Positions 37,639 through 64,000 of a stretch of 64,000 nucleotides of DNA are shown here, in pieces. Origin of the DNA: Gemmatimonadaceae bacterium (GTDB lineage: Bacteria; Gemmatimonadota; Gemmatimonadetes; Gemmatimonadales; Gemmatimonadaceae). Position 1 is the stretch's first letter; each line of letters opens with the position of its first letter. The notes below the pieces were generated by a model that worked only from the letters and a program-made list of their open reading frames with translations, did not search any database and was not told where the DNA came from. The position numbers were made by a program, and so were the translations under genes. Location: assembly GCA_036273715.1 (NCBI GenBank), contig DASUHB010000037.1, forward strand, positions 62,001 to 126,000, in the 5' to 3' direction.

Positions 37639-37709
37639 GCCGAGTCCGCCGATCCCGGCCGCGACGCGCACGCCCATCCCGCGCGCCGCGGCCGGTCCTG
37701 CGTTAGGCG

Positions 37710-41120: not shown

Positions 41121-41316
41121 GACAGGATATGGTGGAAGGGCACACACGTACGGCGGCGAGCTCGACACTACGGCGGTTGCTGGCGATAAGTTGCCGTGCG
41201 GTCCGCCCTCGCGCCAGCGCCGACATCGGGCCCTGTACCGCACCCGTGGTCCACCCGCGATATTCTGACCGCTTGCTGGCCCGCCGCTCACATCGGACAT
41301 CGACCTGACCCGTCTC

Positions 41317-42960: not shown

Positions 42961-42967
42961 GCGCCGC

Positions 42968-44899: not shown

Positions 44900-44979
44900 G
44901 CACACGTCATCCTGTGAGAGTCGTCGCCGAGACCGAACTCTCTCCCTCGGCACCCCGGGACGCAAGTTTGGGCTGTCGT

Positions 44980-45855
44980 TCAGCCCGCGGCCTGGGCCAG
45001 CGCCTTCACGTCGGATTCCGACAGGGTGAGCTCGGCCGCGGCCATGTTGTCCTCGAGATGCTTCACCTTCGACGTGCCGGGAATCGGCAGCATCACGGGG
45101 GAGCGATGCAGCAGCCAGGCAAGCGCCAGTTGCGACGGCGTCGCGCCGAGCCGCTTGGCCAACGTGTGCAGCACACTGCCCTCTTTCGCCAGCGCGCCGG
45201 TCGCCAGTGGGAACCAGGGAATGAACCCGATGTTGTGCGCTTCGGCGTGATCGAGCAGCGGCTCCGCCGTCCGCTCGGCGAGGTTGTATTTGTTCTGCAC
45301 GGTCACGATCGTGGCGTACCGTTGGGCCTGCTCGAGCTCCTCGATCGTCACTTCCGACAATCCGATGTGCCGGATCTTGCCTTCCTTCTGCAGCGAGGCG
45401 AGCTCCCCGACCTGGTCGGCGAGCGGCACCTTGGGATCGATGCGATGCAGCTGGAAGAGGTCGATCCGGTCCAGGCCTAACCGGCGCAAGCTCATCTCCG
45501 CTTCCTGCCTCAAATATTCCGGACGCCCAACGGGCTCCCAGTTGCCTGGGCCGCCGCGCGTGAGCCCGGCTTTCGTCGCAATCACCAAGTCGGCGGGATA
45601 CGGATACAGCGCCTTGCGAATGAAATCCTCGGCGACGTACGGGCCGTACGAGTCCGCGGTATCGATGAGCGTGACACCGAGCTCGATCGCGCGCCTGAGC
45701 ACGCGCACCGCTTCGGCGGGATCCTTGGGATCGCCCCACACCCCGGGACCGGTCAACTGCATGCTGCCAAAGCCGAGGCGGTGCACCGGCATGTCGCCCC
45801 CAATGACGAACGTGCCGGAGCGTTCCGCTGGACGTTCGAGTGTCGTCGTCGCCAT
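44980..45855 (-). CDS. aldo/keto reductase
   Basis: 291 residues, NADPH-dependent (alpha/beta)8 barrel. The catalytic tetrad can be placed: Asp and Tyr in [16 protein letters not shown], Lys in [13 protein letters not shown], His in [14 protein letters not shown]. The closing NADP motif is [21 protein letters not shown]. Carbonyl substrates vary and cannot be inferred. AGAG lies upstream of ATG 45855. It is divergent from the gamma-glutamyltransferase gene. Confidence 0.93.
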
Positions 45856-46057
45856 GAGTCATCTCTGGTGAAGAGTCGATTTCGTTAGGCACGCGACGCG
45901 CGCTGCGCGCCTCGTCGCCAAGCACTTTGGTCCAACGACGCCGCACACCGCGCCGTTCCCGATGCGTCGCTGCACGCCCCGCGCCCGCGTCCCGCCCGGT
46001 TGCGGGCGCGCCGACATCGATTCAAGTTCCCGAACACATCCATACCAGACTCCCACC
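45856..46057. other. divergent intergenic region
   Basis: About 200 bases between the aldo/keto reductase (-) and gamma-glutamyltransferase (+) genes. It has one octamer at 45885 and no recognisable promoter, repeat or small gene. Confidence 0.4.
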
Positions 46058-48763: not shown

Positions 48764-49114
48764 GTGGCCGACGACCGGACAGAGCTCGTGCAGGGAACGC
48801 TCGAAATGCTCGTGCTCAAAACGCTGGCGCTCGAGCCCATGCACGGATGGGGCATCGCGCAGCGCATCGAGCTGATGTCCAACCGCGTGTTCATGGTCAC
48901 GCAAGGGTCGCTGTATCCGGCGCTCGTCCGCATGCGGCGCCGCGGATGGATCACGTCGTCGTGGCGCGTCACGGAGAACAACCGCCGCGCGCGATACTAT
49001 GCGCTCACCGCGGCCGGCGAGCGCCAGCTCGACGCCGAGCGCGCGGCGTGGCGGCGCGCCTCGGGTGCGGTGAACGGCATTCTGAGCGCGCGCCTCGCGC
49101 CGGGCGCGACATGA
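48764..49114 (+). CDS. PadR-family transcriptional regulator
   Basis: 116 residues, GTG start with GAAGGA 9 bases upstream. Winged helix: LVQGTLEMLVLKTLALEPMHGWGIAQRIE, then FMVTQGSLYPALVRMRRRGWI (the recognition helix region) and the wing SSWRVTENNRRARYYALTAAGERQL. Such short PadR proteins (subfamily with 'QGTLDMLVL') usually repress an operon with a neighbouring permease. It overlaps the permease start (ATGA). Confidence 0.93.
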   Translation: MADDRTELVQGTLEMLVLKTLALEPMHGWGIAQRIELMSNRVFMVTQGSLYPALVRMRRRGWITSSWRVTENNRRARYYALTAAGERQLDAERAAWRRASGAVNGILSARLAPGAT

Positions 49115-51747
49115 GCATCTTCTCCGACCTCGGCGCGCGCCTGGCGAGCATTGTGTGGCGCCGGCGCGAGGAGCGCGAGATGGACGAAGAGCTCCGCTTT
49201 CACATGGACATGGAAGCGGAACAGGCGCGGCGCGCCGGGGCATCGCCCGATGCCGCGCGGCGCCGCGGCATGATTGCGTTAGGCGGCGTGGAGCGTACGA
49301 AAGAAGAGGTTCGCGACGCGCGCGGCACGCGCGTGCTCGACGACACCATGCGCGATGTCGCCTTTTCCGTGCGCACGCTCCTCCGAGCGCCGGCCGTTGC
49401 GCTGGTCGTCATCGTCACGCTCGCACTCGGCATCGGCGGGACGACCGCCATCTTCAGTACCGTCGATGCGACGCTGGTGAAACCGCTGCCGTACCAGGAG
49501 CCGGGCCAGCTGGTCCGCCTGTACGAGGGGTCGCCGGGCGAGGCGAATCCGCACGGCTTCGTGTCGCCGACGATGTTCCTTGCCTATCGCGAGCGGCTGT
49601 CGTCGTTCGAGCATCTCGCCGCCGGATACACGTACGACGACAGGGGCGCGGACATCGGCGCCGACGGACGCCCGGAGCGCATCCACGTCCTGAGCATTAC
49701 CGCCGGATATTTCGCCACGCTGCGTCGTCCACCGGCGATGGGGCGAGAGTTCGAGCCTAACGAAGAGAACGGAGCCCCATCGGTGATCCTCGGCCATCAG
49801 CTGTGGGTGGACCGATTCCACGCGAGCCCAACGGCGCTCGGCGCCGAGCTCGTGATGGATGGGCGGCCGTACACCGTGGTCGGCATCATGCCGGGGGCGT
49901 TCGTGGATCCGCTGCGTCCGGGTGCCGACGCATACACGCCGCTCGACATGACACCGGGGCTGGACCCGAGCAACATCGACAATCATTACCTGACGGTGAT
50001 TGGACGGCTCCGCCCCGAAACGCCCCTGCCCCGCGCGCAGGCCGAGCTCGACGCGGTGCGCGTTTCGTTAGGCAGGGAATACGCCGATGCCAGGCGGACG
50101 GCCGCGCGGCTGTACTCGCTCAAGGAGGACATGGTCGGTCCGGCGAGTCGCGCGCTCGAGCTCGTGTTGGGCGCGGTGGGGCTCGTGCTGCTGCTGGTGT
50201 GCGTGAACGTGGCCACGCTGTTGCTCGTGCGGGCATCGGCGCGCGCCCATGAATTCGCGCTTCGCGCCGCGCTCGGCGCCCGTCGCAGCCGGTTGCTGCG
50301 GCAGATGCTCGTGGAAAGCCTGGTGCTCGCGCTCGCCGGCGATGCGCTGGGGCTCGTCGTCGCCCGAGCCGCCATGAGCGGTATCGTTCGACTCGGCGCC
50401 GGATCCGTGCCCAGACTCAGCGCACTCTCGCTCGATCCGACGCTGCTGCTCTTTTCCGTGGCCATCACCACCGCGAGCGCCGTGCTGTTCGGTCTCACGC
50501 CGGCGCTGCGTGCGGTTCGCACGGATCCGATCGATGCCCTACGCGGCGAGGATCGCGCGCTCGCCGGAAGCCGCGGGCACAACCGCGTGCGCAGCGCACT
50601 GGTGACGGCGCAGGTGGCTCTCGCGTTCGTTCTCATGGTCGGCGCCGGTCTGCTCCTCGTGAGCTTTCATCGCCTTCGTTCGCTCGATCTCGGTGTGGAC
50701 ACCGATCACGCCCTCGTGTTCGAGCTGCATCTGCCGGACGCGCGCTACGATTCGACCGCGCGAGCGGCGTTCTACGAGGACATCGCATCGCGGATCGCGC
50801 ATCTGCCGGGCGTGCGTGCCGCCGGCGGCGTCTCCAAACTGCCGGCAACCGGCGAGTACCACGAGTGGGGGACGGTGCCGGTGACCGGGCCTAACGTTGG
50901 GCGAACGCACGCGAACCTCGGCGCCCAACAACGCATCGTCTCGGGCGACTACTTCCGGGCCGCCGGCATCCCCGTGCTCGAGGGCCGGGCATTCGATGCG
51001 CGCGACGCGGCGGGCACGCCCAAACGCGCGATCGTGAGCACGCTGGCGGCAGAAAAGCTGTTCCCGGGCGTCGATCCAATCGGGCAGCGCCTGCGGACCG
51101 GCGGGTTCGAATGGGAAGTGATCGGCGTCGTCCCGGACGTGTCGGTGAACGCGGAAGGCGACCGCGAGCCCACCATCTATCACGCGCACGCGCAGTTTGC
51201 CGGCGACCGCAACTGGGCGATCACGCAAATCGTGTCGACCTCCGGTCCGCCGCAAGGGCTCATCCCGCTCATTCAACGCACGATCGCCGAACGCGATCCG
51301 CAGCTGGTGATGTACCGTCCGATGTCGCTCGCCGACGCGATCGGCGCCGGCACCGCCCAACGGAAATTCACGCTGGTGATACTGGTCTGCTTCGCCGCGG
51401 TGGCGGTGCTGCTGGCCGCGTTAGGCCTGTTCGGCGCGCTGGCCTACGCGGTCAAGCTGCGGTCGCGCGAGTTCGGCGTGCGGATGGCGATCGGCGCCGA
51501 GCGCGGCACCATCCGCCGGCTCGTCCTGCGTCAGGGGTTGGTCGTCACCGTCGCCGGCATCGGCATCGGCCTCGTGGGCTTCGCGGCGTTCGCGCGGGTG
51601 ATGTCGTCGCTCGTGTTTCGCGTGCGGCCGCTCGACCCGTCGGTGTTGATCGGCGCGGCGGCCATCATTCTGGTCGTCGGCGCGTTTGCCGCCTATCTGC
51701 CGGCGCGGCGAGCGACAGCCGTGGATCCGAGAACGATCTTGCAGTGA
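49111..51747 (+). CDS. ADOP-type (FtsX/MacB-like) ABC permease
   Basis: 878 residues. The N-terminal tail has EMDEELRFHMDMEAEQARRAGASP and ARRRGMIALGGVERTKEEVRD, the mark of acidobacterial duplicated orphan permeases. Two MacB-PCD/FtsX repeats follow, each with a periplasmic domain and membrane helices: LGIGGTTAIFSTVDATLVKPLPY, VVGIMPGAF, LLLVRASARAHEFALRAALGARRSRLLRQ and, in the second half, LRSREFGVRMAIGAERGTIRRLVLRQG. No ATPase gene is adjacent, consistent with 'orphan'. It is presumed to move hydrophobic compounds or lipoproteins; the substrate is unknown. Confidence 0.92.
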   Translation: MSIFSDLGARLASIVWRRREEREMDEELRFHMDMEAEQARRAGASPDAARRRGMIALGGVERTKEEVRDARGTRVLDDTMRDVAFSVRTLLRAPAVALVVIVTLALGIGGTTAIFSTVDATLVKPLPYQEPGQLVRLYEGSPGEANPHGFVSPTMFLAYRERLSSFEHLAAGYTYDDRGADIGADGRPERIHVLSITAGYFATLRRPPAMGREFEPNEENGAPSVILGHQLWVDRFHASPTALGAELVMDGRPYTVVGIMPGAFVDPLRPGADAYTPLDMTPGLDPSNIDNHYLTVIGRLRPETPLPRAQAELDAVRVSLGREYADARRTAARLYSLKEDMVGPASRALELVLGAVGLVLLLVCVNVATLLLVRASARAHEFALRAALGARRSRLLRQMLVESLVLALAGDALGLVVARAAMSGIVRLGAGSVPRLSALSLDPTLLLFSVAITTASAVLFGLTPALRAVRTDPIDALRGEDRALAGSRGHNRVRSALVTAQVALAFVLMVGAGLLLVSFHRLRSLDLGVDTDHALVFELHLPDARYDSTARAAFYEDIASRIAHLPGVRAAGGVSKLPATGEYHEWGTVPVTGPNVGRTHANLGAQQRIVSGDYFRAAGIPVLEGRAFDARDAAGTPKRAIVSTLAAEKLFPGVDPIGQRLRTGGFEWEVIGVVPDVSVNAEGDREPTIYHAHAQFAGDRNWAITQIVSTSGPPQGLIPLIQRTIAERDPQLVMYRPMSLADAIGAGTAQRKFTLVILVCFAAVAVLLAALGLFGALAYAVKLRSREFGVRMAIGAERGTIRRLVLRQGLVVTVAGIGIGLVGFAAFARVMSSLVFRVRPLDPSVLIGAAAIILVVGAFAAYLPARRATAVDPRTILQ

Positions 51748-51755
51748 GCGCCTGA

Positions 51756-51794
51756 GAGGCGCCGGCCACCCCGCTACCGCGCGCCGGCCGCCTC
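51756..51794. terminator. bulged GC-rich inverted repeat between convergent genes
   Basis: GAGGC-GCCGGC and GCCGGC-GCCTC can pair with a bulge around the loop ACCCCGCTACC. It spans the gap after the ADOP stop and the last codons of the TPR gene. There is no T-run; a terminator role is a guess from position. Confidence 0.3.
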
Positions 51795-52664
51795 GTGCAC
51801 CTTGCCCCGCAACATCCGCCGCACGAACGCCGACGCTGGATTGTGTGCCGTGGCCAGGTCGAATGCCTGGCGATACAGCGCCGCCGCCTCGCCGCGTTCC
51901 CCTAACTGCTCGTCGGCCACGGCGAGCAGATAGTGGAGAAACGGATCGTTCTCCCCGCCTTTCATGCCGATCGCCCGCATCAGCTCGGTGCGCGCGCGTT
52001 TCGGATCGTGCGTGTACAACGCCACGTAGCCCACGAGATACGGATAGAACCGCTCCTGTTGGGCCGCCATCGCGGTGTCGCCAGCCAGCGCCCGGCGCGC
52101 CGCCTCGACCTGCGCGCGCGCCGCCGCGGCATCGCCGCGACGGGCGGCGAGCCTGCCTAACGCGTGAGCGAGGCGGAAATCCCAGAGCGACGTCGGATGC
52201 TTCTTGGGCGCCGGCTCCTTGATACCCATCGCATAGCCATCGCGATACCACCGCTCGGCCGCGTCGAGGTCGCCGGCATCGATGCAGATCCGCCCGGCTT
52301 CGTCCGCCATCTCGCCTTCCTGATAGAACGCGTTCGACGGCTCGGCTTGCTCCCGCGAGTGCCAGTACGCGATCACCATCGACTCGTATTTGCCGGCGTT
52401 CGCGCAGTCGCCGTCGAAGGCATACGAGATCGCCAGCGCCCGTTGGGCATCGGCTTTCGCCGATGGATCCGAGGTCGTGTCCGCGAGCGGTTGGAGAATC
52501 GCGCGTGCTCGCGCCGTTTCGCCGCTCAGGTCGAGCTGGATCGCGTGCCGCATTTCCGGCGACAACCGGCGGCCGCCCTGGCCCTGCGCGCGCACAGATG
52601 ACGCTACGAGCGGCAACCAACAGAGCGCGAGGCGGGCGATCGTGCGCGAAGCAACAGCGGACAT
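51774..52664 (-). CDS. secreted TPR-like protein
   Basis: 296 residues with a signal peptide (ARLALCWLPLVASSVRAQG). Helix pairs in TPR spacing fill the rest: EMRHAIQLDLSGETARARAILQPL, AKADAQRALAISYAFDGDCANAGKYES, DAGDLDAAERWYRDGYAMG, LGRLAARRGDAAAARAQVEAARRAL, LVGYVALYTHDPKRARTELMRAIG, and LLAVADEQLGERGEAAALYRQAF. A protein-interaction scaffold in the periplasm is likely. ATG at 52664 follows GGAGG by 6 bases. Confidence 0.82.
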   Translation of the reverse strand: MSAVASRTIARLALCWLPLVASSVRAQGQGGRRLSPEMRHAIQLDLSGETARARAILQPLADTTSDPSAKADAQRALAISYAFDGDCANAGKYESMVIAYWHSREQAEPSNAFYQEGEMADEAGRICIDAGDLDAAERWYRDGYAMGIKEPAPKKHPTSLWDFRLAHALGRLAARRGDAAAARAQVEAARRALAGDTAMAAQQERFYPYLVGYVALYTHDPKRARTELMRAIGMKGGENDPFLHYLLAVADEQLGERGEAAALYRQAFDLATAHNPASAFVRRMLRGKVHEAAGAR

Positions 52665-52834
52665 GGCGGACCTCCGTCCCACGGGATTAGGCGATTCTGA
52701 GGGAGATGATCGATGCGCATCATGTGACGGCGCAAGGGGCTGCGTCTCACGGCGCGTGCCTTGCAGCGATGTACGGGCTGAACTGCCACCCGGCGCACCG
52801 ACGCGCTCCCGGCACGACCCGTCCACTCGCCCTC

Positions 52835-53701
52835 ATGACCCGTTCATTCCGCATCGCCGGCGTCGCCGCCGCACTCGCCTCGGGATCGCTGGCCGCCTTC
52901 GCCTGCAGCTCGAGCACGTCGCCTAACGGATCGGTCGGCTCGGTGAAAGTGACGCCGGCCACCGACAGCGTCGCGGTCGGCAACACCATCGCGCTGCAGG
53001 CGACGGTCATCGGGCCCGGCGGCCAGGTGGTGTCGGGGCAGCGGGTGTTCTGGAACACCGGCGACGCATCCATTGCGACGGTGAGCGATGCGGGCGTCGT
53101 CACCGGTGTCGGCCCGGGAACCGTGCAGATCGCCGCCAGCGCCGGGGGCGCGTCGGGTATCGCGACCATTACGGTGCTGCCGCCGCCGGTCGCGTCGGTG
53201 TCGGTTTCGCCGCCGCTCGACACGATCGTCCTTCCGGGCACTGCCCAACTCACCGCGGCCGTGTTCGACGCGCAGCACAACCCGCTCACCGGCCGCGCGA
53301 TCACGTGGTCCAGCAACCTGCCTAACGTTGCCAACGTCGACAGCGCCGGACTCGTCACCGGCGTGTCGCCCGGCTCGGCGACCATCACCGCCTCGAGCGA
53401 AGGCCACGCCGGCACTGCCACCATCGTCGTGCAGCCGCCTCTCGCGGCCACGGTCACAGTAGCACCTCCGGCCGCGACGCTCATCGTCGGCGACAGCGTG
53501 GCGCTCAGTGCGACCGCGAAGGATGCGCAGGGCAACGTGATCACCGGTGCGCCGATCACCTGGTCCACCAACAACGCCGCCGCCGCGACCGTCTCGGCGG
53601 CAGGCCTCGTGAAGGCAGTGGGCGCGGGCACGGCAATCATTACGGCGACGAGCGGGAGCGCGAGCGGCTCTTCCACGATTCTCGTCATTCCCGTGCTTTG
53701 A
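52835..53701 (+). CDS. lipoprotein with three BIG2-type Ig-like domains
   Basis: 288 residues. Lipobox-like LAAFAC at ~24, a Ser/Thr linker, then three ~80-residue repeats each with the VTPATDSVAVGNTIALQATV ... ATVSDAGVVTGVGPGTVQIAA pattern of bacterial Ig-like group 2. These modules bind surfaces or carbohydrates or simply space other domains; there is nothing else in the protein. ATG at 52835 gives the signal peptide; no ribosome site is visible. Confidence 0.87.
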   Translation: MTRSFRIAGVAAALASGSLAAFACSSSTSPNGSVGSVKVTPATDSVAVGNTIALQATVIGPGGQVVSGQRVFWNTGDASIATVSDAGVVTGVGPGTVQIAASAGGASGIATITVLPPPVASVSVSPPLDTIVLPGTAQLTAAVFDAQHNPLTGRAITWSSNLPNVANVDSAGLVTGVSPGSATITASSEGHAGTATIVVQPPLAATVTVAPPAATLIVGDSVALSATAKDAQGNVITGAPITWSTNNAAAATVSAAGLVKAVGAGTAIITATSGSASGSSTILVIPVL

Positions 53702-53832: not shown

Positions 53833-56175
53833 ATGGCTTTCCGCCCGATCCGCTGGTCCGCGCTCGGCGTCTGCGCCGCGCTGGCGACGTTCGTTCTGCC
53901 TAACGGAACGCGCGCCGAGCGCGCGCCGTCGCTCGGCCCGGAGGCCGCGGCGTCGCTCGACGCCTTCATCGCGCACGAGATCCGACAGAAGGAGCTGCCC
54001 GCGTTCAGCGTCGCGCTCGTCGACGACCAGCACGTCATCTGGTCGAAGGATTACGGTATGGCGCGCCCGAACGACAGCATCCGTGCGAGCGCCTCGACGG
54101 TGTATCGCGCCGGCGCCATCTCGCAGGTCCTGACCGACATCGCGATCCTGCAACTGGCGGAGCGCGGCAAGCTCGATCTCGATGCGCCGCTGACGCGCTA
54201 TCTCCCGGCGCTCCATCTCGACACGCGCACGCCCATCACGCTGCGCGAGCTCATGACCCATCGCGCAGGGCTCGAGCGCGAACCGCCGATCGGCGGACTC
54301 ACCGATGATACCACGCGTTCGTTGCGCGACATCGTCCAGCGCCTCGATTCCGCGCCGTCGGTCTTCGCACCGGGAACGCGCACGCACCCATCCGATGCGG
54401 GCGTGGCCCTCGCCGGCTACGTGCTCGAGTCCACGCAGCGACAGGCGTTCGCCGCCGACGTGCGGACCGCCGTGCTCTCTCCGTTAGGCATGTCGCACAG
54501 CGCGTTCGCGCGGACGCCGCCAATCACCGCGGCGCTCGCCGCCGGCCACATGTGGACGTACGATCCGCGCAGCCTGCCGGCGCCGACCTTCGACATCGGC
54601 GCCGCGCCCGCGGAGGGCCTCTACACCACCGCCGGCGATCTGACGCAGCTGCTGCGCGCGCTCTTCGCCGGCGGCCGCGTGCTCCGGGCCCGCACGCTCG
54701 ACGCCGCGATGCGGCCCGCCATTCGCGGCGCCGACACCGCGCGCACGACGCTCGGCTTCCGCCTAACGACGCTCGACCGGCGGCGCGAGCTCGTGCAGCA
54801 CGGCGCCCTCTACGGCGTCACCTCCGAGATCGCCGCGCTCCCCGACGACAAGCTCGGCGTCGTCGCCATCACCACCGAAGACGACGCCCTCGGCGTCACG
54901 AACCGGGTGGCAGCGCTCGCGCTGCGCATCATGCTCGCCCAACGCAACCACGCCGCCCTCCCGCCGCTCGATACCACCAGCGACGTCCCGCCGGCGCTCG
55001 CCCACGACCTCGGCGGCGAATACGCCGACAGCGCACGCGTCGTCGACCTGTTCCAGAGCCTGGGACATCTCTACCTGGAGGACGCTCGCGGCGGCGAGCG
55101 CGCCGACCTTCGGATGCTCGGCGACACGCTCGTCGACGATGGCCGCCTCGCGTTCGGCATGCGCGTGCGTCGCGCCGGTGACAGCGCCATCGTCCTCGGC
55201 GGCGACACGCTTCGCCGCGTCGCCGAGCCCGAGCCCGCGCCGGTTCCCGAGGCATGGCGCGGACTCATCGGCGAATACGGACCCGACTATCGAACCGTGT
55301 ACGTCCTCGAACGCAATGGCGCGCTCGAGCTGCTCGCCGACTGGTTCGTCCGCTATCCGCTCGCACCGGTGTCGGCCGGCACGTTTCGCATGCCCGACCG
55401 CGGCGCCTACGCCGGCGAGGAGGTCGCGTTCTCGCGGTCGCCGACCGGACGCGCCACGAGCGTGACGTTAGGCAGCGTGCGCTACGCGCGGCGCGTCACT
55501 GGTCCGGAGGACGGCTCGCAGTTCCGCATCACCCCGCTCCGTCCGCCGGCCGAACTCCGGGCGGAAGCAATGGCTGCCCAACCGCCGCGCGAGACGGGCA
55601 CGTTCCGGCCGGCGGATCTCGTCGAGCTGGTCCGGCTCGACACGACCATCAAGCTCGACATCCGATACGCCACGTCCAACAACTTCATGGGCACGCCGCT
55701 GTACCAGGAAGCGCGCGCATTCATGCAGCGTCCGGCCGCCGAGGCCGTGGTGCGCGCCAGCGCCTGGCTGCGCGCGCGCGGCTTCGGGCTCCTCATCCAC
55801 GATGCTTACCGCCCGTGGTTCGTGACCAGGATGTTCTGGGACGCGACACCCGACGACAAGAAAATGTTCGTTGCCGATCCGTCGAGCGGCTCGAAGCACA
55901 ATCGCGGGTGCGCGGTGGACCTGACGCTCTACGATCTCGCGACCGGCCAACCGGTGACGATGACCGGCGGCTACGACGAGATGACGGATCGCAGCTATCC
56001 CGACTACCCGGGCGGCACGTCGCGCCAGCGGTGGCTGCGCGCGCTGCTGCGCCGGGCGATGGACATGCAAGGCTTCACCGTCGACAAGGAAGAATGGTGG
56101 CACTTCGACTACACGGATTGGCGCGACTACGGGATCGGCAACGTGCCGTTCGACCGGATCGCGTCCGGCGCCTAA
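53833..56175 (+). CDS. inactive beta-lactamase-like domain fused to VanX-type D,D-dipeptidase
   Basis: 780 residues, secreted (signal to ~28). Residues ~35-360 follow the serine beta-lactamase/esterase fold, but the catalytic motifs are lost: the SxxK site reads AISQ (95-98, in YRAGAISQVLTD), the YxN site reads HPSDAG (185-190), and no KTG-type motif is evident. A middle domain (~390-560) looks like the accessory domain of such proteins. The C-terminal ~190 residues are a D-Ala-D-Ala dipeptidase of the VanX/M15D family with all key residues: HDAYRPW, SKHNRGCAVD (His689, Asp696) and EWWHFD (Glu754, His757). It should cleave D,D-dipeptides in the periplasm; the dead N-terminal domain may bind peptidoglycan peptides. 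Confidence 0.87.
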   Translation: MAFRPIRWSALGVCAALATFVLPNGTRAERAPSLGPEAAASLDAFIAHEIRQKELPAFSVALVDDQHVIWSKDYGMARPNDSIRASASTVYRAGAISQVLTDIAILQLAERGKLDLDAPLTRYLPALHLDTRTPITLRELMTHRAGLEREPPIGGLTDDTTRSLRDIVQRLDSAPSVFAPGTRTHPSDAGVALAGYVLESTQRQAFAADVRTAVLSPLGMSHSAFARTPPITAALAAGHMWTYDPRSLPAPTFDIGAAPAEGLYTTAGDLTQLLRALFAGGRVLRARTLDAAMRPAIRGADTARTTLGFRLTTLDRRRELVQHGALYGVTSEIAALPDDKLGVVAITTEDDALGVTNRVAALALRIMLAQRNHAALPPLDTTSDVPPALAHDLGGEYADSARVVDLFQSLGHLYLEDARGGERADLRMLGDTLVDDGRLAFGMRVRRAGDSAIVLGGDTLRRVAEPEPAPVPEAWRGLIGEYGPDYRTVYVLERNGALELLADWFVRYPLAPVSAGTFRMPDRGAYAGEEVAFSRSPTGRATSVTLGSVRYARRVTGPEDGSQFRITPLRPPAELRAEAMAAQPPRETGTFRPADLVELVRLDTTIKLDIRYATSNNFMGTPLYQEARAFMQRPAAEAVVRASAWLRARGFGLLIHDAYRPWFVTRMFWDATPDDKKMFVADPSSGSKHNRGCAVDLTLYDLATGQPVTMTGGYDEMTDRSYPDYPGGTSRQRWLRALLRRAMDMQGFTVDKEEWWHFDYTDWRDYGIGNVPFDRIASGA

Positions 56176-56207
56176 CTGACAGGTTCACCGTGAACGGATC
56201 ACTCGCC

Positions 56208-57932
56208 ATGCGTCGCGCCCTGCTCGTGCTCTCCGCCGCGCTCGCCGCCTGTACATCGGCGCGCGTCGCGCCCGCCCCCACCCCCGCCTCGCTCGAGGGG
56301 CCGTACGACCTGGTGATCGAAGGCGGTCGCGTCGTGGACGGCACCGGCAATCCCTGGTTCTACGGCGATGTCGCCGTGATCGGCGAGCGCATCGCGCGCG
56401 TCGCTCCGGCCGGCATGCTCGCGCACGCACCCGCCAAGCGCCGCATCGACGCCCACGGCATGGTGGTCGCCCCCGGGTTCATCGACATCCAGGCGCAGTC
56501 GGTGGGCGAGCTGGTGAACGGCGACAGCCGCGTGATCAGCATGACCACGCAAGGCGTGACGACGATGATCTTCGGTGAAGGAGAGACGCCCGCGCCGACG
56601 AACGCCAAGGTGATCCCGATGTATGCCGACGCCGACGGCGCCGACAGCACCGAACAACGGATCATGGCCGGCTTCCAGGGTCCGCACGGCTTCGGCAACT
56701 GGCTCGAGGAGATGCAGCGCCACAAAGCGTCGGTGAATTTCGGTTCGTTCATCGGCGCGGCCACCGTGCGCGCGTACGCCAAGGGGATGGCCGAGGGATC
56801 CGCAACGCCGGCGGAGCTCGACACGATGCGCGCTGTCGTTAGGCGCGCGATGCAGGACGGGGCCTTCGGCGTCGGGAGCGCGTTGATCTATCCGCCGGGC
56901 AGCTACGCGTCCACGCAGGAGCTCGTGGAAGAAGCCAAGGCCATGGCGCCCTACGGCGGCGTCTACATCACCCACATGCGCTCCGAGGGCGACCGGCTGC
57001 TCGAAGCCGTCGACGAAGCGCTCACGATCGGTCGCGAGGGCGGCGTGCCGGTCGAGATCTATCATCTCAAGGCGGCCGGCGTGCGCAACTGGCCCAAGGC
57101 CCGGCAGGTCGTGGCCAAGATCGACTCGGCGCGCGCCGCGGGGCAGGATGTCGCAGCCGACCAGTACGCGTACACCGCGGGCGCGAACGGCCTCTCGTCC
57201 TGCATTCCCCCGTGGGCCCACGCCGACGGCAAGCTGCTCGAGCGGTTAGGCGATCCCACGACGCGCGCCAAGATCAAGACGGACATGATGCAGGTCGAGA
57301 GCAGCTGGGAGAACCTCTGTCTCGGCGCCACGCCGGCGAACGTCGAAGTATTGGGATTCCACGAGGACTCGCTCAAGCAGTTCGAGGGCAAGCGCCTCTC
57401 GGACATCGCACAGGCGCTGCACACCGATTGGGCCGACGCGCTCATCAACCTCACCATCGCCGAGCACAACCGGCTGGGGCAGATCCTGTTCATCGCATCG
57501 GATTCCAACGTGGCGATGCAGATTCAGCAGCCGTGGATGAAATTCGGGACGGACGCCGAGGGCCTCGACCCCGACAGCGCGCAGGGCATGACGCACCCGC
57601 GCTCGTACGGCAACTATCCGCGCGTGTTAGGCCGCTTCGTGCGCGAGCAGCACGTGCTGCGGCTCGAGGATGCGATCCGGAAAATGACGTGGGCCGTGGC
57701 TGCGCGCCTCTCGATCCACGACCGCGGCCTGATTCACGAAGGCATGCACGCCGACATCGTGGTCTTCGACCCGAACACGATCATCGATCACGCCACGTAC
57801 GAGAATCCGCACCAGCTCTCGACGGGCATTGAGCACGTGCTCGTGAACGGCGTGGAGGTCGTCACGGACGGCAAGTCCACGGGGGCCAAGCCGGGCGAGA
57901 TCGTGCGCGGCCCCGGCTACGTTCAGCGTTAG
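56208..57932 (+). CDS. D-aminoacylase-like amidohydrolase lipoprotein
   Basis: 574 residues (ATG 56208; GTG 56190 is an alternative). Lipobox LAAC with Cys15. The amidohydrolase barrel is recognisable: DLVIEGGRVVDGTGNPWFYGDVAVIGERI, VYITHMRSEGDRLLEAVDEAL, EIYHLKAAGVRNW, and MTHPRSYGNYPRVLGRFVRE with ADIVVFDPNTIIDHATYE. The metal-binding HxH after PGFID is replaced by Gln (IQAQS, Gln95 and Gln97), and the usual Cys loop reads GEGETPAP. It may use a single-metal site or a different substrate than N-acyl-D-amino acids. It starts 32 bases after the VanX fusion and is probably co-transcribed. The stop TAG falls in an octamer. Confidence 0.85.
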   Translation: MRRALLVLSAALAACTSARVAPAPTPASLEGPYDLVIEGGRVVDGTGNPWFYGDVAVIGERIARVAPAGMLAHAPAKRRIDAHGMVVAPGFIDIQAQSVGELVNGDSRVISMTTQGVTTMIFGEGETPAPTNAKVIPMYADADGADSTEQRIMAGFQGPHGFGNWLEEMQRHKASVNFGSFIGAATVRAYAKGMAEGSATPAELDTMRAVVRRAMQDGAFGVGSALIYPPGSYASTQELVEEAKAMAPYGGVYITHMRSEGDRLLEAVDEALTIGREGGVPVEIYHLKAAGVRNWPKARQVVAKIDSARAAGQDVAADQYAYTAGANGLSSCIPPWAHADGKLLERLGDPTTRAKIKTDMMQVESSWENLCLGATPANVEVLGFHEDSLKQFEGKRLSDIAQALHTDWADALINLTIAEHNRLGQILFIASDSNVAMQIQQPWMKFGTDAEGLDPDSAQGMTHPRSYGNYPRVLGRFVREQHVLRLEDAIRKMTWAVAARLSIHDRGLIHEGMHADIVVFDPNTIIDHATYENPHQLSTGIEHVLVNGVEVVTDGKSTGAKPGEIVRGPGYVQR

Positions 57933-57943
57933 GCGCGGCCGCG

Positions 57944-59134
57944 TCAGGCGCCTGCCGCGACCGCCTTGGATGCCACCCGGGCTGTCTCGGCGAGCACCGC
58001 TGCCCCGATGAACAGGCTCTCCTCGGCGGCATAGAACCGCGCGGAGTGCGCCGGAATCGGCTCGCCGCCCGCTTCGCGCGCCCCGATGCGCAGGAAGCAC
58101 CCGGGGATGCGCTCCATGTAGTACGCGAAGTCTTCGCCGCCCATGTTGAGCGTCCCGAGCGGCGTCAGTGCCTGTTGGCCCAACACGGCCACGGTCGCGG
58201 TGCGCGCCCAGGCGGCGGCTTCGGGTGGATTCACGATCGGCGGCGGCCCCAGGTCGATCGCCACCCGCGCGCTCACGCCATACGCGCCCGCGAGCGTCCC
58301 GGCGAGCCGACGCATCTCCTCGTGCAGCGTCTGGCGCGTGTCCGCGTCCACCGCGCGCACGGTTCCCTCGAGCACGGCGGAGTCCGGAATCACGTTAGGC
58401 GCGGAGCCCGCGTGGATTGTGCCGACGGTGACTACCGCCGCGCGCGCCGGGTCCAGACGACGCGACACGATGGTCTGCAGCGCGCCCACGAGCGCGGCCG
58501 CGGCAACGATCGGATCCGCGCCCTCTTGCGGCCGTGCGCCATGGCCGCCGCGCCCCGTGAGCTCGATGCGGAACGTGTCCGCCGCCGCCGCGAGCGGTCC
58601 CGCCTCCGCCACCACCTGCCCAACGGCGAATCGCCGGTCGACGTGTCCGCCGAAGATGGCGCGCACGTCGTCCAGCGCGCCCGACTCGAGCACGGCCGCG
58701 GCGCCGCGCCCGGTCTCCTCCGCCGGCTGCAGCACCACGAGCACATCCCCCTGCGCCGGGGTCATCGCCAGCAGGTAGGCCGCGCCAACCGCCCACGACG
58801 CGTGCACGTCGTGTCCGCAGGCGTGCATCACGTTAGGCGTGCGCGACGCGAAGGGGAGGCCCGTGGCTTCCTGGATCGGCAGCGCGTCGATGTCGCCGCG
58901 CACCGCGACCAACGGCGCCGCCGGATCGCGTCCGCGAATCCGCGCCACCAGTCCCGTCTCGGCGACGCGATCCAGGCGCCGCGTGTCGAGCGGCGCCAGC
59001 GCCGCCTGCAGCCGCTCGCACGTGCGCCGCTCGGCGAACGACAACTCCGGATGCTCGTGCAGATCGCGCCGGAGCGTCACCAGCGCGTCGCGCGCGTCCG
59101 CGGGAAAGAGATCAGCTATCGCGCTCGGAAGCAT
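57944..59134 (-). CDS. M20-family amidohydrolase, probable N-succinyl/N-acyl-L-amino acid deacylase
   Basis: 396 residues. RRDLHEHPELSFAERRTCERL opens the catalytic domain; metal ligands lie in HACGHDVHASW, VLQPAEETGRGAAAVL and near the C terminus in NMGGEDFAYYME. The dimerisation domain has GRGGHGARPQEGADPIVAAAALVGAL. This is the hippurate hydrolase/N-acyl amino acid amidohydrolase branch. As third gene of the operon with a GNAT and an NSAR-like enzyme it fits the L-desuccinylase of the D-to-L conversion pathway. ATG 59134 is preferred because GGGAGG sits 8 bases before it. Confidence 0.9.
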   Translation of the reverse strand: MLPSAIADLFPADARDALVTLRRDLHEHPELSFAERRTCERLQAALAPLDTRRLDRVAETGLVARIRGRDPAAPLVAVRGDIDALPIQEATGLPFASRTPNVMHACGHDVHASWAVGAAYLLAMTPAQGDVLVVLQPAEETGRGAAAVLESGALDDVRAIFGGHVDRRFAVGQVVAEAGPLAAAADTFRIELTGRGGHGARPQEGADPIVAAAALVGALQTIVSRRLDPARAAVVTVGTIHAGSAPNVIPDSAVLEGTVRAVDADTRQTLHEEMRRLAGTLAGAYGVSARVAIDLGPPPIVNPPEAAAWARTATVAVLGQQALTPLGTLNMGGEDFAYYMERIPGCFLRIGAREAGGEPIPAHSARFYAAEESLFIGAAVLAETARVASKAVAAGA

Positions 59135-59153
59135 CCCCGCCACCTCCCGTCGA

Positions 59154-60281
59154 TCAGCGTCCGATGACGTCTCGCCGCACCGTCAGGTTGTCGATCCGGT
59201 CCATGTCCACCGTCACACCCATGCCCGGCGCATCGAGCGGCACCCGCACCATCCCCCGCTCGTCCATCGTCCACTCCGGCGTCACCACATCGCGCTCCCA
59301 GTAGCGCGAGCTCGGCGACAGGTCGCCGGGCAGCGTGAAGTTGGGCAGCGAGGCCAGTGCGACGTTGTGCGCCCGGCCGATCCCGCTCTCGAGCATCCCG
59401 CCGCACCACACCGGCACGTGCTGCGCCCAACAGTAATCATGGATGGCGAGCGACGAGGCGAAGCCGCCCACGCGTCCGGGCTTGATGTTGATGATACGGC
59501 CGCTGCCTAACGTCACCATGTCCTGCGCCCGCTCGAGATCGGTGATCGACTCATCGAGGCACAAGGGCGTGCGCAGCGACTGCTGCAGCGCGGCGTGCCG
59601 CACCAGATCCTCACGGCCCAACGGCTGCTCGATCATCACCAGGTTGAAGGTGTCCAGCCGGCGCAGCACCGCGCTGTCGTCGAGCGTGTACGCCGAGTTG
59701 GCATCGACGGCCAGGTGCGCCGTGGGCCCGAGTGCCTCGCGAACGGCGCTCACGAACTCGACGTCCGTCCCCGGCGCGATCTTGATCTTGATCTTGTTGT
59801 ACCCGTTCTTGCGCGCCGCGAGCGCCAGCTCGACCAGCGCCTCCGGGCTGCTCTGGATGCCCAGCGAGATGCCGGTGGCGATCTCGTCGCGCGTCCCGCC
59901 CAACATGCGCGCGAGCGGCACGCCCTCGAGCCGCGCCGCGAGCTCCCACGACGCCATCTCCACCGCCGCTTTCGCCATGCGATGCCCGCGAAAATCGCGA
60001 TCCAGGATCTCCGACACCGCGTTAGGCGACGGGAGATCCGCGCCCCGCACCCGAGGCGCGACCCAGGTGCGAATCGCCCACCACGCCGTGTCGATGGTTT
60101 CCGGGCTGTAGTTGGGCTGCTCGCCCGCTACGCATTCGCCCCAGCCCGATATCCCGTCGGGATGCTGTAGCTCCACCAGCGCGATGCGCCGCTCCGTCAC
60201 CATGCCGGACGAGATGCGGAACGGCTGCTTGAGCGGGAGTCGGATCTCCCGCAACACGATGCGATCGAAACGCAGCGTCAC
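59154..60281 (-). CDS. N-succinylamino acid racemase / o-succinylbenzoate synthase family
   Basis: 375 residues, enolase superfamily, muconate lactonising subgroup. GTG start overlapping the GNAT stop (GTGA). Catalytic lysines lie in NKIKIKIAPG (Lys165, Lys167), metal ligands at Asp193 (AVDANSAY), Glu218 (MIEQPLG) and Asp243 (CLDESI), and the second base Lys267 in NIKPGRVGG. The family hallmark PVWCGGMLESGIGRAHN is present. Without men genes nearby, and between a GNAT and an M20 hydrolase, N-succinylamino acid racemase is the likely role: it interconverts N-succinyl-D- and L-amino acids. MenC activity is the alternative. Confidence 0.9.
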   Translation of the reverse strand: MTLRFDRIVLREIRLPLKQPFRISSGMVTERRIALVELQHPDGISGWGECVAGEQPNYSPETIDTAWWAIRTWVAPRVRGADLPSPNAVSEILDRDFRGHRMAKAAVEMASWELAARLEGVPLARMLGGTRDEIATGISLGIQSSPEALVELALAARKNGYNKIKIKIAPGTDVEFVSAVREALGPTAHLAVDANSAYTLDDSAVLRRLDTFNLVMIEQPLGREDLVRHAALQQSLRTPLCLDESITDLERAQDMVTLGSGRIINIKPGRVGGFASSLAIHDYCWAQHVPVWCGGMLESGIGRAHNVALASLPNFTLPGDLSPSSRYWERDVVTPEWTMDERGMVRVPLDAPGMGVTVDMDRIDNLTVRRDVIGR

Positions 60282-61156
60282 AGTTCGGTTGGGCCGGAGG
60301 ATGGGGTGGCAGTGAGCGTAGCGATGTAGTAGCTGCAGTCGGCGCCGTCATCATGGACGAATCCGGTCACTCCATACCCGGCGTCGACCGCCCACAGAAT
60401 GACGCAGCGCGTGCTGGCGCGCCAGCGCGTCGCGGTCGAGATCGATTCCGCTTGCACCCGGTCGATCGATGCGGGAACGGCAATGCGCACGACCGGATCG
60501 CGCGGATGTGCCGAGAGATCGGGAACGCTGGGCAGGCCGTCGGCACCCACTGGATTGAGCACGGGTGCGTCGAGCGCATCGTTGGGCGGACGCGTCGCGA
60601 GCGGCGCCTCGCGATCCAGCTCCCACGCGACAATGAATCGGTCGGTGCCGAGCCCGCGATGCAGCGTGCTGCTGGTATCCGTGCCGTACATGTTGGGCAC
60701 GTATTCGATCACGTGCGCGCCCAACCGGTTGATGTTGAGGTGCGCGTTTCGCGACACGAGCGGGTCGAAGGTCCAGTACATCCGCGTGATGCCGCGTTGG
60801 CGAAGCGTGTCGCGTTGGTACGCTTTGAGGCGTCGGCCGATACCGTGGTCGCGCATGTCGTCGCGGACGGCGAGCATGTCGGACCAGTGGGCCAATCGAC
60901 CGTGCTCGACGCCCGTCATGCCGAACACGAAGCCGACCAGTTGGTCGCCCTGAAACGCGCCGGCGGCGACGCCGCCGATGCGCTGCGTCACTTTGAGCAG
61001 GGCGGCCGGGACGCGTTCGCTGAATTCGGGGCCCCAGACCTCGGTCTGCAGGTCGGCGCAGCGCGCGAATTCGTCGTGTGTGCGAAGGGCGCGCACCTCG
61101 ATTGCGTTGGGCGTCGAGGCGGCGTGCGGTTGGGAGTCGAGCACCGGCTTGTGCAT
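60278..61156 (-). CDS. GNAT (COG3375) acyltransferase, probable D-amino acid N-succinyltransferase
   Basis: 292 residues. The GNAT core is seen in ALRTHDEFARCADLQTEVWG, AGAFQGDQLVGFVFGMTG, the acyl-CoA loop DDMRDHGIGRRLKAYQRDTL, and YWTFDPLVSRNAHLNINRLGA with VEYVPNMYG-like sequence (here VIEYVPNMYG). Proteins of this COG sit next to NSAR genes, where one was shown to transfer succinyl from succinyl-CoA to D-amino acids. The C-terminal ~80 residues are family-specific. First gene of the three-gene operon; the transcript probably starts near 61213. No Shine-Dalgarno site at ATG 61156. Confidence 0.85.
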   Translation of the reverse strand: MHKPVLDSQPHAASTPNAIEVRALRTHDEFARCADLQTEVWGPEFSERVPAALLKVTQRIGGVAAGAFQGDQLVGFVFGMTGVEHGRLAHWSDMLAVRDDMRDHGIGRRLKAYQRDTLRQRGITRMYWTFDPLVSRNAHLNINRLGAHVIEYVPNMYGTDTSSTLHRGLGTDRFIVAWELDREAPLATRPPNDALDAPVLNPVGADGLPSVPDLSAHPRDPVVRIAVPASIDRVQAESISTATRWRASTRCVILWAVDAGYGVTGFVHDDGADCSYYIATLTATPSSGPTEL

Positions 61157-61219
61157 GGGCGATCGGCAGCGGGAACCGGCAACCGGGGCGGGACGGCGGG
61201 GGCCGGCCCGGTGGCGGTC

Positions 61220-61248
61220 AATATGCAAGACGACATGGTATACCTCAA
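61220..61248 (-). promoter_or_regulatory. probable promoter of the GNAT-NSAR-M20 operon
   Basis: On the minus strand TTGAGG (61248-61243), a 17-base spacer, and CATATT (61225-61220). It shares DNA with the GTATAC operators, so the divergent GntR regulator could repress it directly. The -10 box is weak. Confidence 0.45.
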
Positions 61249-61258
61249 GGTATACAAT
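61230..61258 (+). promoter_or_regulatory. probable promoter of the gntR gene
   Basis: ACGACA (61230-61235), a 17-base spacer, and TACAAT (61253-61258), about 60 bases before the gntR start. Both GTATAC sites fall within this promoter, which suggests autoregulation. Confidence 0.5.
61236..61257. promoter_or_regulatory. tandem GTATAC-centred GntR operators
   Basis: TGGTATACCT (61236-61245) and AGGTATACAA (61248-61257) are two near-identical palindromic boxes, 12 bases centre to centre. FCD-type GntR regulators commonly recognise boxes built around TnGTATACnA. They lie exactly between two divergent promoters, next to an FCD GntR gene. Confidence 0.75.
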
Positions 61259-61320
61259 AGCGCACCGGAAAACTCGACCCAGGCTTGCCGATTCCCGCCG
61301 TTCCTGTACCTTCTGCCCCT

Positions 61321-62061
61321 ATGCCCGAGGCCACGAAATCCGGCAGGCCAAACCAACCCGTCAGCAAGCGCGCGACCCGCGGCGACCGCATTGCCCGCGC
61401 CTACGAACAACTTCGCGACCTCATCATCGCGGGCCGCCTCGCCCCGGGCTCCCGCATCATCGAAAGCGACATCGCCGAACGGTTGGGCGTCAGCCGCACA
61501 CCCGTGCGCAGCGCCCTGCACCGCTTGCAACAAGAAGGCTACATCGCCGGCGTTGGGCGGAAGAAAGAACAACGCCTCGTCATCGCGCCGCTCACGCAGG
61601 AAGACGCGCGCGAGTTGTTCGAAATCATCGGCTCGATCGAAGGACTCGCGGCACGCGGCGCCGCCGAAGCGCCCGACCACGCGCGCGACTCGTTGGTCAC
61701 GCAGCTCCGCCACATCAACGTCAAGCTCTCCGAAGCATCGCGCCCCGGACATCCGGATCCGCTCCGCATCTTCGACATGGACATGTCGTTCCACCGGCAC
61801 TACGTCGACGCGGGCGCCGGGCCGCGCCTGCGCGCGCTGCACGACGCGATCAAGCCGCAAGCCGAACGCTACGTGCGCCTCTACACCAGTTCGTTGATCG
61901 ACGAGATCGGCCGGTCCGTTGCCGAGCACGACACGATCATCGAGCGCATCGCCTCCGCGAATGCCGACGGTGCCCAACGGTCGGTCGAGCGCAACTGGCG
62001 CAACGCCGCCGTTCGCCTCCGGCGCGTCATTTCGACGCTGGGCGAGCGCGGGAGCTGGTAG
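61321..62061 (+). CDS. GntR-family transcriptional regulator, FCD subfamily
   Basis: 246 residues. The N-terminal winged helix has AYEQLRDLIIAGRLAPGSRIIE and the recognition region IAERLGVSRTPVRSALHRLQQEGYI. The C-terminal all-helical FCD domain carries the metal/ligand residues: FDMDMSFHRHYVDAG, then EHDTIIERIASANADGA. It should bind a small acid (for example an N-acyl amino acid) and control the divergent D-amino-acid operon through the GTATAC boxes. It starts at ATG 61321 without a ribosome site. Its 3' end overlaps the MFS gene end by 35 bases. Confidence 0.92.
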   Translation: MPEATKSGRPNQPVSKRATRGDRIARAYEQLRDLIIAGRLAPGSRIIESDIAERLGVSRTPVRSALHRLQQEGYIAGVGRKKEQRLVIAPLTQEDARELFEIIGSIEGLAARGAAEAPDHARDSLVTQLRHINVKLSEASRPGHPDPLRIFDMDMSFHRHYVDAGAGPRLRALHDAIKPQAERYVRLYTSSLIDEIGRSVAEHDTIIERIASANADGAQRSVERNWRNAAVRLRRVISTLGERGSW

Positions 62062-63514
62062 CCGGCTCGTATACCAGCGACGACAACGGCGCCGCCAATT
62101 CCTCCAATCCGGTCCGCTCCGCGCGGACGCCGTAGATCAGCTCCACGATGGCCGCGGCGAACATCAGCACGGCCGCGAGCACGTAGCCGAGGAACAGTTG
62201 CACGCGCGACCCGCTGCCGATGAGATGCCCGAACAGCGTCGGCGCCACGATCCCGCCCGCCGCCGTGCCCAACGAATAGAAGAAGGCGATCGCCAGCGCC
62301 CGGATCTCGAGCGGAAAAATCTCGCTCACCGTGAGGTAGGCGGAGCTGGCGGCGCACGAGGCGAAAAAGAAGATGATCGACCAGAGCGCGGTCTGCGAAG
62401 TGGCCGACAGGTAGCCCTGCGCGAACAACCATCCCGTGAGCACCAACAGCGCCGCCGAGATGGCGTAGGTGCCGGCGATCATCTGCTTCCGGCCGATCGT
62501 GTCGAACAGATGGCCTAACAGCACCGGGCCCAGAAAGTTGCCGACCGCGAACGGCAACAAGTAGATCCCGGTGCGCGGAGCCGGCACGTCGTAGAATCGC
62601 GTGAGAATGAGCACGTACGTGAAGAACACCGCGTTGTACAAGAACGCCTGCGACGTGATCAGCGCCAGGCAGAGCACCGACCGCTGCCAGTATTGCTTGA
62701 ACATTACCCGCGCCACCAGTCCGAACCCGAAGCTGCGCCGCGGGTGGATGACTAACGGCTCGGTCGTGCACACCTCGAGCGTGCGCCCCAGACTCCGTTC
62801 CACCCTCGCTTCGATGGCGTCCATGATCCGGTGCGACTCGTGCCCCGAGCCGTGCGTCATGAGCCACCGCGGACTTTCCGGGATGCTCTTGCGCAGGAAC
62901 AGAATCAGCAAGCCTAACGCAGCGCCGATGCCGAAGCCGACACGCCAGCCCAGCGTCGGCGGCAAGATCGCCGGATCCAGAATGAGCAGCGTGGAGGCGG
63001 AGCCGATCGCCGCGCCGATCCAGTAGCTGCCGTTGACGATGAGGTCCGCCCGGCCGCGATACGTGGCCGGGATCAATTCGTCGATCGCCGAGTTGATGGC
63101 GGCGTATTCGCCGCCGATGCCGGCGCCGGTCAAGAACCGGAACGCGATGAAACTGCTCAGATTCCACGAGAACGCCGTGAGCAACGTGCCCAACAGATAG
63201 ACCGCCAGCGTCACGAAGAAGAGCTTCCGTCGCCCGTAGCGATCGGTCAGGTGCCCGAACACGAGCGAGCCGATCACGGCGCCGATCACGTACGTCGACC
63301 CGATTTCGCCGATCTGCGTCGCGGTGAAGTTCATCACCGCCGGATCCTGGAGCACGCCGCTCACCGCTCCGGCGAGCGTCACCTCGAGCCCATCGAGGAT
63401 CCAGGTCACGCCGAGCGCGATCAGGATGAGCCAATGGAATCCACACCACGGCAGTCGGTCCAAACGCGCCGGAATGTGCGTCTCGAACGGTTCGGCGGTC
63501 AGTTGGTCATCCAT
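62027..63514 (-). CDS. MFS transporter (sugar-porter/acid-transporter type)
   Basis: 495 residues with 12 predicted membrane helices and a long central cytosolic loop. MFS signatures: DGLEVTLAG in helix 1, FGHLTDRYGRRKLFF after helix 2, PESPRWLMTHG after helix 6 and LFDTIGRKQM in the second half. This branch transports sugars, aromatic acids or metabolite acids by proton symport. Beside the D-amino-acid island it could import a related substrate, but it is transcribed convergently with the regulator and may be independent. No ribosome site at ATG 63514. Confidence 0.88.
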   Translation of the reverse strand: MDDQLTAEPFETHIPARLDRLPWCGFHWLILIALGVTWILDGLEVTLAGAVSGVLQDPAVMNFTATQIGEIGSTYVIGAVIGSLVFGHLTDRYGRRKLFFVTLAVYLLGTLLTAFSWNLSSFIAFRFLTGAGIGGEYAAINSAIDELIPATYRGRADLIVNGSYWIGAAIGSASTLLILDPAILPPTLGWRVGFGIGAALGLLILFLRKSIPESPRWLMTHGSGHESHRIMDAIEARVERSLGRTLEVCTTEPLVIHPRRSFGFGLVARVMFKQYWQRSVLCLALITSQAFLYNAVFFTYVLILTRFYDVPAPRTGIYLLPFAVGNFLGPVLLGHLFDTIGRKQMIAGTYAISAALLVLTGWLFAQGYLSATSQTALWSIIFFFASCAASSAYLTVSEIFPLEIRALAIAFFYSLGTAAGGIVAPTLFGHLIGSGSRVQLFLGYVLAAVLMFAAAIVELIYGVRAERTGLEELAAPLSSLVYEPATSSRARPASK

Positions 63515-63642
63515 TGGCTACTCGCATCACGATGGCCTCCCCGGGCGCCGATGTCCGCTGGCGACACGGCCGCATCCGAGTGTATTCTGCGCAATGCCGG
63601 GTCCGCTTGATAGCTGCAGGACCCGTTCCCGACGGTGGTGAC

Positions 63643-64000
63643 ATGGAGCTTCTGGACTTACTTCTTGGCTCGAACGCCTCACGCAGCGCAACGCTCGCCG
63701 CGATGAGCCCCGTGGTCCTCATGGGTCGCGGACACAGCGGCACCCGGGTGCTGGCGTGGATGTGTGTACACCTCGGCGTCACGTTGGGCACGAGCGGTCC
63801 GCACATCGAGGGCGATCCCGACGACGTCCGCTTCACCAACAAGATCAAACGGCTGGCGGCGCGCAACCTGGATGTGACGTCGCCGGCGCGTGTGCGCGAG
63901 CCGGCGTTGCGCCGCTTCAAGGCGGCGGTGTCGGCGTACTACGCGGGACTCGGCAGTCCCGCGGGCATGTGGGGCTGGAAGTTTCCGGAGACGTATCTCA
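63643..64000 (+). CDS. sulfotransferase-like protein, partial
   Basis: The first ~119 residues are present; the gene runs off the right edge. SPVVLMGRGHSGTRVLAW is the P-loop-like 5'-phosphosulfate-binding motif of PAPS-dependent sulfotransferases, and the last visible stretch WGWKFPETYL matches the following conserved block. It would transfer sulfate to a carbohydrate or other acceptor; related proteins with this start also occur in glycan clusters as non-classical members. It is divergent from the MFS gene. Confidence 0.7.
   Translation, partial: MELLDLLLGSNASRSATLAAMSPVVLMGRGHSGTRVLAWMCVHLGVTLGTSGPHIEGDPDDVRFTNKIKRLAARNLDVTSPARVREPALRRFKAAVSAYYAGLGSPAGMWGWKFPETYL

Follow-up and report, generated by a model that had tools for sequence, protein, structure and literature searches.

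Bacterial cell-wall debris is rich in D-amino acids, which are regarded as difficult to break down. The N-succinylamino acid racemase (NSAR) pathway of Geobacillus kaustophilus, reportedly described by Sakai et al. in 2006, is said to convert D- into L-amino acids irreversibly. An NSAR/L-succinylase pair is known from this organism (PMC7431475). In a stretch of 64,000 nucleotides from a Gemmatimonadaceae bacterium (GCA_036273715.1, contig DASUHB010000037.1, positions 62,001 to 126,000; hereafter the window), the same three enzyme families, GNAT, NSAR and M20, are found in one operon, as in G. kaustophilus. The difference is that many of the genomes examined here add exported D-peptide hydrolases, a D-aminoacylase-like lipoprotein (DAA), SusC/SusD and an operator of an FCD-type GntR regulator. 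Judging from sequence comparison, it is somewhat probable that this island serves to recover D-amino acids from peptides, with N-succinylation as the final route. Since many related genomes repeat the pairing, the genes seem to form a genuine, if variable, salvage module and not to have met by chance. The core is known; what would be new is its association with exported hydrolases of D-peptides and, in relatives, the shared operator. Literature searches, with subscription journals mostly outside their coverage, found no description of this gene combination.

The window belongs to a metagenome-type assembly of 4.34 Mb that is 98.7% complete. On the basis of the list of open reading frames and of Pfam and NCBIfam profiles, the island consists of seven genes at 53833-63514 of the window, given below together with the presumed operator.

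53833-56175, + strand: exported fusion of a beta-lactamase/penicillin-binding protein (PBP)-like domain with VanX (Peptidase_M15) (Pfam, motif alignment, AlphaFold model)
56190/56208-57932, + strand: DAA, a D-aminoacylase-like amidohydrolase lipoprotein (start GTG 56190 or ATG 56208; PDB match 1m7j)
57944-59143, - strand: M20 amidohydrolase, presumed N-acyl-L-amino acid deacylase (desuccinylase) (TIGR01891; YxeP 1ysj)
59154-60281, - strand: N-succinyl/N-acylamino acid racemase (NSAR) of the enolase superfamily (TIGR01928; PDB 2ggg/1r0m/1sja)
60278-61228 (likely start 61165 or 61156), - strand: GNAT acyltransferase, presumed succinyl-CoA:D-amino acid N-succinyltransferase (Pfam Acetyltransf_1)
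61238-61255, divergent GNAT/GntR promoter: presumed GntR operator, two GTATAC half-sites 12 bp apart (GTATACCTCAAGGTATAC)
61285-62061, + strand: GntR-family regulator with FCD ligand domain (Pfam GntR and FCD)
62027-63514, - strand: MFS transporter with a profile of the sugar/aromatic-acid type (Pfam)

The GNAT, NSAR and M20 genes are adjacent on one strand, with an overlap of 4 bases between GNAT and NSAR and a gap of 10 bases between NSAR and M20, and are packed as one predicted operon. The fusion and DAA genes, separated by 14-32 bp, are probably carried on a single transcript, which converges on the operon with the end of DAA 11 bp from that of M20. The GntR gene is divergent from GNAT, and its 3' end is overlapped by the MFS gene. 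The VanX-type fusion, the DAA-like lipoprotein, the FCD GntR and the MFS transporter, listed in an initial annotation as lying beside a D-to-L operon, were thus all found as named.

The racemase matched TIGR01928 with 333.7 bits (cut-off 200.65) and the N-acylamino acid racemases of PDB 2ggg, 1r0m and 1sja with E values of about 1e-92 to 1e-96 over 356-368 aligned residues. In the alignment to 2ggg and 1r0m it keeps KxK, VDANSA, IEQPL, CLDES, the Asp/Glu/Asp metal ligands and the second catalytic Lys; its closest named matches are from metagenome-assembled genomes of Gemmatimonadetes/Gemmatimonadaceae. The M20 protein matched TIGR01891 with 339 bits, over the cut-off, and YxeP (1ysj) with E=2e-80. 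For GNAT, the core is invariant across 15 homologues and the predicted model shows the GNAT fold, for which Foldseek returned the general GNAT fold only; a PDB sequence search with this protein found no relative. None of the three enzymes carries a signal peptide by eye. Because the three families are the same as those of the G. kaustophilus pathway, the core appears to match the known conversion of D- to L-amino acids via N-succinylation, and by analogy succinyl-CoA would be the donor and D-amino acids the acceptor for GNAT. The D-to-L operon named in the initial annotation is supported.

As TIGR01928 carries the name o-succinylbenzoate synthase, we also considered that the racemase might be MenC of menaquinone synthesis. 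The match to this equivalog model is over the cut-off, and the family to which both enzymes belong is bifunctional in places. The genome, however, has MqnC of the futalosine pathway over the cut-off and no MenB over the cut-off, on which ground a menaquinone role was rejected; in addition, the operon partners are GNAT and M20 with no men genes, and several relatives at least 95% complete lack an NSAR at E<=1e-60. MenC identity is thus very improbable.

Linkage was examined by searching 79 related genomes with each island protein and fetching about 20 kb around NSAR; after the addition of 80 named loci, gene calling and clustering, a total of 109 non-redundant NSAR loci were obtained. Within 10 kb of NSAR, GNAT was found in 91 loci, M20 in 67, DAA in 33 and GntR in 23. 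Recurring neighbours by Pfam were a serine beta-lactamase plus DUF3471 type (serine D-peptidase-like, 19 loci), the TonB receptor SusC (19), SusD (18), amino-acid permease (13), S9 (10) and S15 (7) peptidases, M19 dipeptidase (5) and tricorn-like proteins; VanX was present in five and MFS in two. Neighbours seen in single lineages were M55 D-aminopeptidase, free-standing VanX, S13 DD-carboxypeptidase (next to GNAT or SusC) and Beta-lactamase2.

Chance expectations were calculated for the 38 relatives with a strong NSAR, the window genome being excluded, from copies hand-counted from listed coordinates; the resulting P values ignore kinship and are therefore too small, that is, lower bounds on the true P. 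DAA was observed 18 times within 10 kb of NSAR against 0.35 expected, and this linkage is robust to relatedness, because it recurs in many genera with different arrangements. For VanX the observed number was 2 against 0.09 within 10 kb and 5 against 0.23 within 25 kb (five of 18 relatives in the latter case, Poisson P=4e-6, hand-counted), suggestive of a weak and sporadic yet non-random linkage. M55 (2 against 0.10, P about 0.005) and M19 (3 against 0.49, P about 0.014) were weakly above chance, and S13 was not (1 against 0.41, P=0.33), although an S13 DD-carboxypeptidase gene adjoins GNAT in L112, L114, L116 and G036. For the GNAT/NSAR/M20 core, DAA and GntR, linkage was above chance, and the lack of conserved gene order that would refute the initial annotation was not seen for DAA and GntR. 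An MFS homologue exists in only five of the 79 relatives; being a genus-only neighbour, MFS was rejected as a conserved island member, contrary to the initial annotation, and its membership of the system is doubtful.

The best argument for D-peptides as the source is that several unrelated families of D-residue hydrolases, namely VanX/M15, M55, S13, serine DD-peptidase-like and M19, meet at the same operon. In G057 (L107, 5981-10782), a pyridoxal phosphate (PLP)-dependent enzyme, an M55 D-aminopeptidase and a free VanX lie beside GNAT-NSAR-M20. This resembles the dpp-type D-aminopeptidase/peptide loci (M55 DppA family), in that M55 has VanX and GNAT as neighbours in G057 and is also close to NSAR in G025; a difference is that no M55 was found in the window genome at E<=1e-15. 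The PLP gene family of G057 also adjoins the VanX fusion in L150 and L175.

The hexamer GTATAC occurs nine times in the window against 1.94 expected, and three copies are in the island: 61238 and 61250 between GNAT and GntR, and 62069 inside the 3' end of MFS. A sigma-70-like promoter, a consensus match only, overlaps the pair. The only copy of ATTGTATAC in the whole assembly is at this GNAT/GntR promoter. No ATTGTATACAAT-like site with up to three mismatches was found at the fusion or MFS promoters. The palindromic candidate operator is therefore confined, as far as these promoters are concerned, to the one between GNAT and GntR, and the GTATAC sites expected upstream of all units in the initial annotation were rejected for the window.

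In relatives, the GTATAC core, often as ATTGTATACAAT, lies in front of GNAT in loci where GntR, DAA or SusC is the divergent gene. Among the 91 loci with GNAT, the site was detected in 18 of 22 that have GntR within 10 kb and in 9 of 69 that do not (Fisher p=4e-9). In G008, M20, NSAR and GNAT share one strand, in this order, and the opposite strand carries DAA, GntR and the fusion. The DAA and GntR genes overlap, 5 bp separate GntR from the start of the fusion, and a single site (L076:11128) lies just before DAA. Since this site is between GNAT and the DAA-GntR-fusion unit, all parts except MFS appear to share one operator region there. Co-regulation of the dipeptidase and DAA genes with the operon, as anticipated in the initial annotation, may thus apply to G008; in the window, the convergent fusion/DAA unit has no such operator.

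A second GNAT paralogue, 62% identical, is present in the same genome as the GNAT of the window (L111, G000:C67:71001-91000, 1-10005), with no NSAR there. It is downstream, on one strand, of a partial gene and of SusD, tricorn-like, beta-lactamase-type and S15 peptidase genes, and CGGGTATACCCG is located 49 bp upstream of it.

DAA carries a lipobox (LAAC, by eye) and matches the D-aminoacylase 1m7j with E=3e-73. It is related in amidohydrolase fold family to the D-aminoacylases of Alcaligenes faecalis/Bordetella (1m7j, 3gip) and to PpOngB (9kb1), with E=1e-50 to 3e-73, but differs from these at the metal site, where their Cys and HxH are replaced by Glu and by QxQ or similar in all homologues aligned; the Glu/His/His site keeps both later His residues, and the catalytic Asp is kept as well. 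The D-aminoacylase subtype is defined by Cys/His/His, and HxH is essential in PpOngB (PMC12017989). By this definition DAA would be an amidohydrolase subtype different from the PpOngB-type D-aminoacylases, so the name D-aminoacylase seems premature and D-aminoacylase-like is used here.

The prominence of DAA, the most strongly linked extra gene, also fits a general salvage of N-acyl amino acids, in which DAA would act on N-acyl-D and M20 on N-acyl-L forms of a pre-acylated substrate, NSAR would interconvert the two, and GNAT would act elsewhere or on another amine. All three families act on N-acyl amino acids, and NSARs, which are promiscuous for N-substituents, are combined in biocatalysis with L- or D-acylases (PMC7431475). 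Acylation seems, however, to be part of the pathway, because GNAT adjoins NSAR in most of the loci. Furthermore, DAA is an exported lipoprotein, whereas visual inspection showed no signal peptide in the other enzymes, and the neighbours are D-specific peptidases, not lipases or acyl-amino-acid hydrolases. We consider this scheme rather unlikely.

The fusion protein consists of a beta-lactamase/PBP-like domain (aa 42-351), a beta-rich linker and a VanX-type D,D-dipeptidase (aa 595-762), and its AlphaFold model has a pLDDT of 84 with the first domain still folded. The VanX half is intact: YRP, SxHNRGxxxD and EWWH are invariant in 14 fusions and align to 1r44, and the Arg, the His/Asp/His zinc ligands and the catalytic Glu are all present. 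Its best NCBIfam match is PRK10178 (DdpX), below the cut-off (144 of 176). It thus resembles the VanX/DdpX D-Ala-D-Ala dipeptidases (Pfam M15; 1r44) in its catalytic and zinc residues, but, unlike these, it is exported and is joined to a beta-lactamase-like domain, which has degenerated in this lineage. At the SxxK and YxN positions, the first domain has GAISQ and PSD in G000 and G004 and GAVSQ and PSD in G001; SVSK and YSN are retained in 11 other fusions, including that of G003 from the same genus, and likewise in those of L150 and L175. The first domain in the window lineage has thus lost the catalytic Ser, Lys and Tyr. Its dN/dS, a weak measure here as dS is high, is about 0.42 between G000 and G001, whereas three pairs of intact fusions gave 0.24-0.31, which suggests that the degenerate domain is still constrained, though somewhat relaxed. 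With a folded model and dN/dS below 1, a non-catalytic role appears likelier than decay, and this half is probably a binding or scaffold domain. In G061 (G061:C37:46200-50091), a VanX fusion is located away from NSAR and 0.8 kb from an M55 D-aminopeptidase gene.

By the domain names of the fusion alone, VanX plus beta-lactamase, the island might be taken for a glycopeptide- or beta-lactam-resistance locus. This is extremely improbable, since the beta-lactamase-like domain no longer has its catalytic Ser/Lys/Tyr here, neither a D-Ala-D-Lac ligase nor a VanH-like gene was seen among the open reading frames inspected at 46-64 kb, and the partner genes are catabolic.

Upstream of the island, a run of peptidase-type genes extends over 33651-48103 of the window:

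33651-35837: penicillin amidase family
37713-41081: tricorn-like S41
41317-42957: M28
42971-44899: M1
46058-48103: gamma-glutamyltransferase

Relatives of the tricorn-like and M28 genes are also found near NSAR in other genomes. Between this run and the fusion, a PadR/FtsX/TPR/Big2 block (48764-53701) precedes the fusion in the window and lies beyond GNAT in G002 (L073, G002:C117), and this difference in place points to rearrangement of the island within the genus; the G002 fusion is on another contig, adjoining an S13 gene. At the other end, 63514-64000 holds the start of a gene, sulfotransferase-like by eye only, that is kept beside MFS in G001 (cluster c40).

Such surroundings bear on the possibility that only GNAT-NSAR-M20-GntR form a unit and that the fusion, DAA and MFS lie beside it within a generally peptidase-rich region and serve ordinary cell-wall or peptide turnover. 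This is unlikely, but deserves some weight: the peptidase-type genes at 33.6-48.1 kb, the sporadic linkage of VanX, the genus-only MFS and the absence of the operator from the fusion/DAA unit in the window all agree with it. It is opposed by the DAA linkage, which is far above chance across many genera, and by G008, where DAA, GntR and the fusion are in one unit sharing an operator with the core. Several observations do weigh against D-peptide salvage as the function of the whole island. In addition to the missing operator, only 5 of the 109 loci have VanX within 10 kb of NSAR, the relatives are not independent of each other, DAA is without the Cys and HxH of characterised D-aminoacylases, and there is no conserved importer, MFS being restricted to the genus and the amino-acid permease of 13 loci having no counterpart here.

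For D-peptide salvage, the following order of events may be proposed. The exported VanX half and DAA would liberate D-amino acids, or small fragments with D-residues, on the outer side of the inner membrane, and these would enter the cytoplasm by an importer that is uncertain. From the protein families and the known pathway, GNAT is then expected to succinylate the D-amino acid, NSAR to racemise N-succinyl-D to N-succinyl-L, and M20 to take the succinyl group off the L form, thereby driving the conversion to L-amino acid. Comparative evidence suggests that the FCD GntR controls the GNAT-NSAR-M20 operon and itself via the double GTATAC site, and that this operator additionally governs, in relatives, a divergent unit of the type DAA-GntR-(VanX fusion) or SusC/SusD-peptidase. 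In the window lineage, the fusion and DAA may have been relocated to the opposite end of the operon, with loss of the shared operator. Of the overall model in the initial annotation, the D-to-L operon and the neighbouring D-residue hydrolases are retained, while the conserved membership of MFS and an operator common to all units of the window are not.

A wider proposal, more tentative and on balance doubtful, is that the NSAR operons of Gemmatimonadota and of phyla close to it form the cytoplasmic terminus of 'D-peptide utilisation loci'. In these, uptake by SusC/SusD or by other means, D-specific peptidases that are unrelated yet interchangeable, and a new amidohydrolase subtype, all under one FCD-GntR operator, would turn D-residues of peptidoglycan or other D-peptides into L-amino acids; in the window lineage, the degenerate PBP-like domain would serve the D,D-dipeptidase attached to it as a binding module. 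The locus also points to a pseudo-beta-lactamase domain, and the DAA family to an amidohydrolase subtype without prior characterisation. If D-peptide salvage is correct, the island would represent a conserved and regulated module leading from peptides to L-amino acids without oxidation or PLP racemases, and would account for an uncultured, widespread phylum feeding on D-amino acids, for which it supplies concrete genes.

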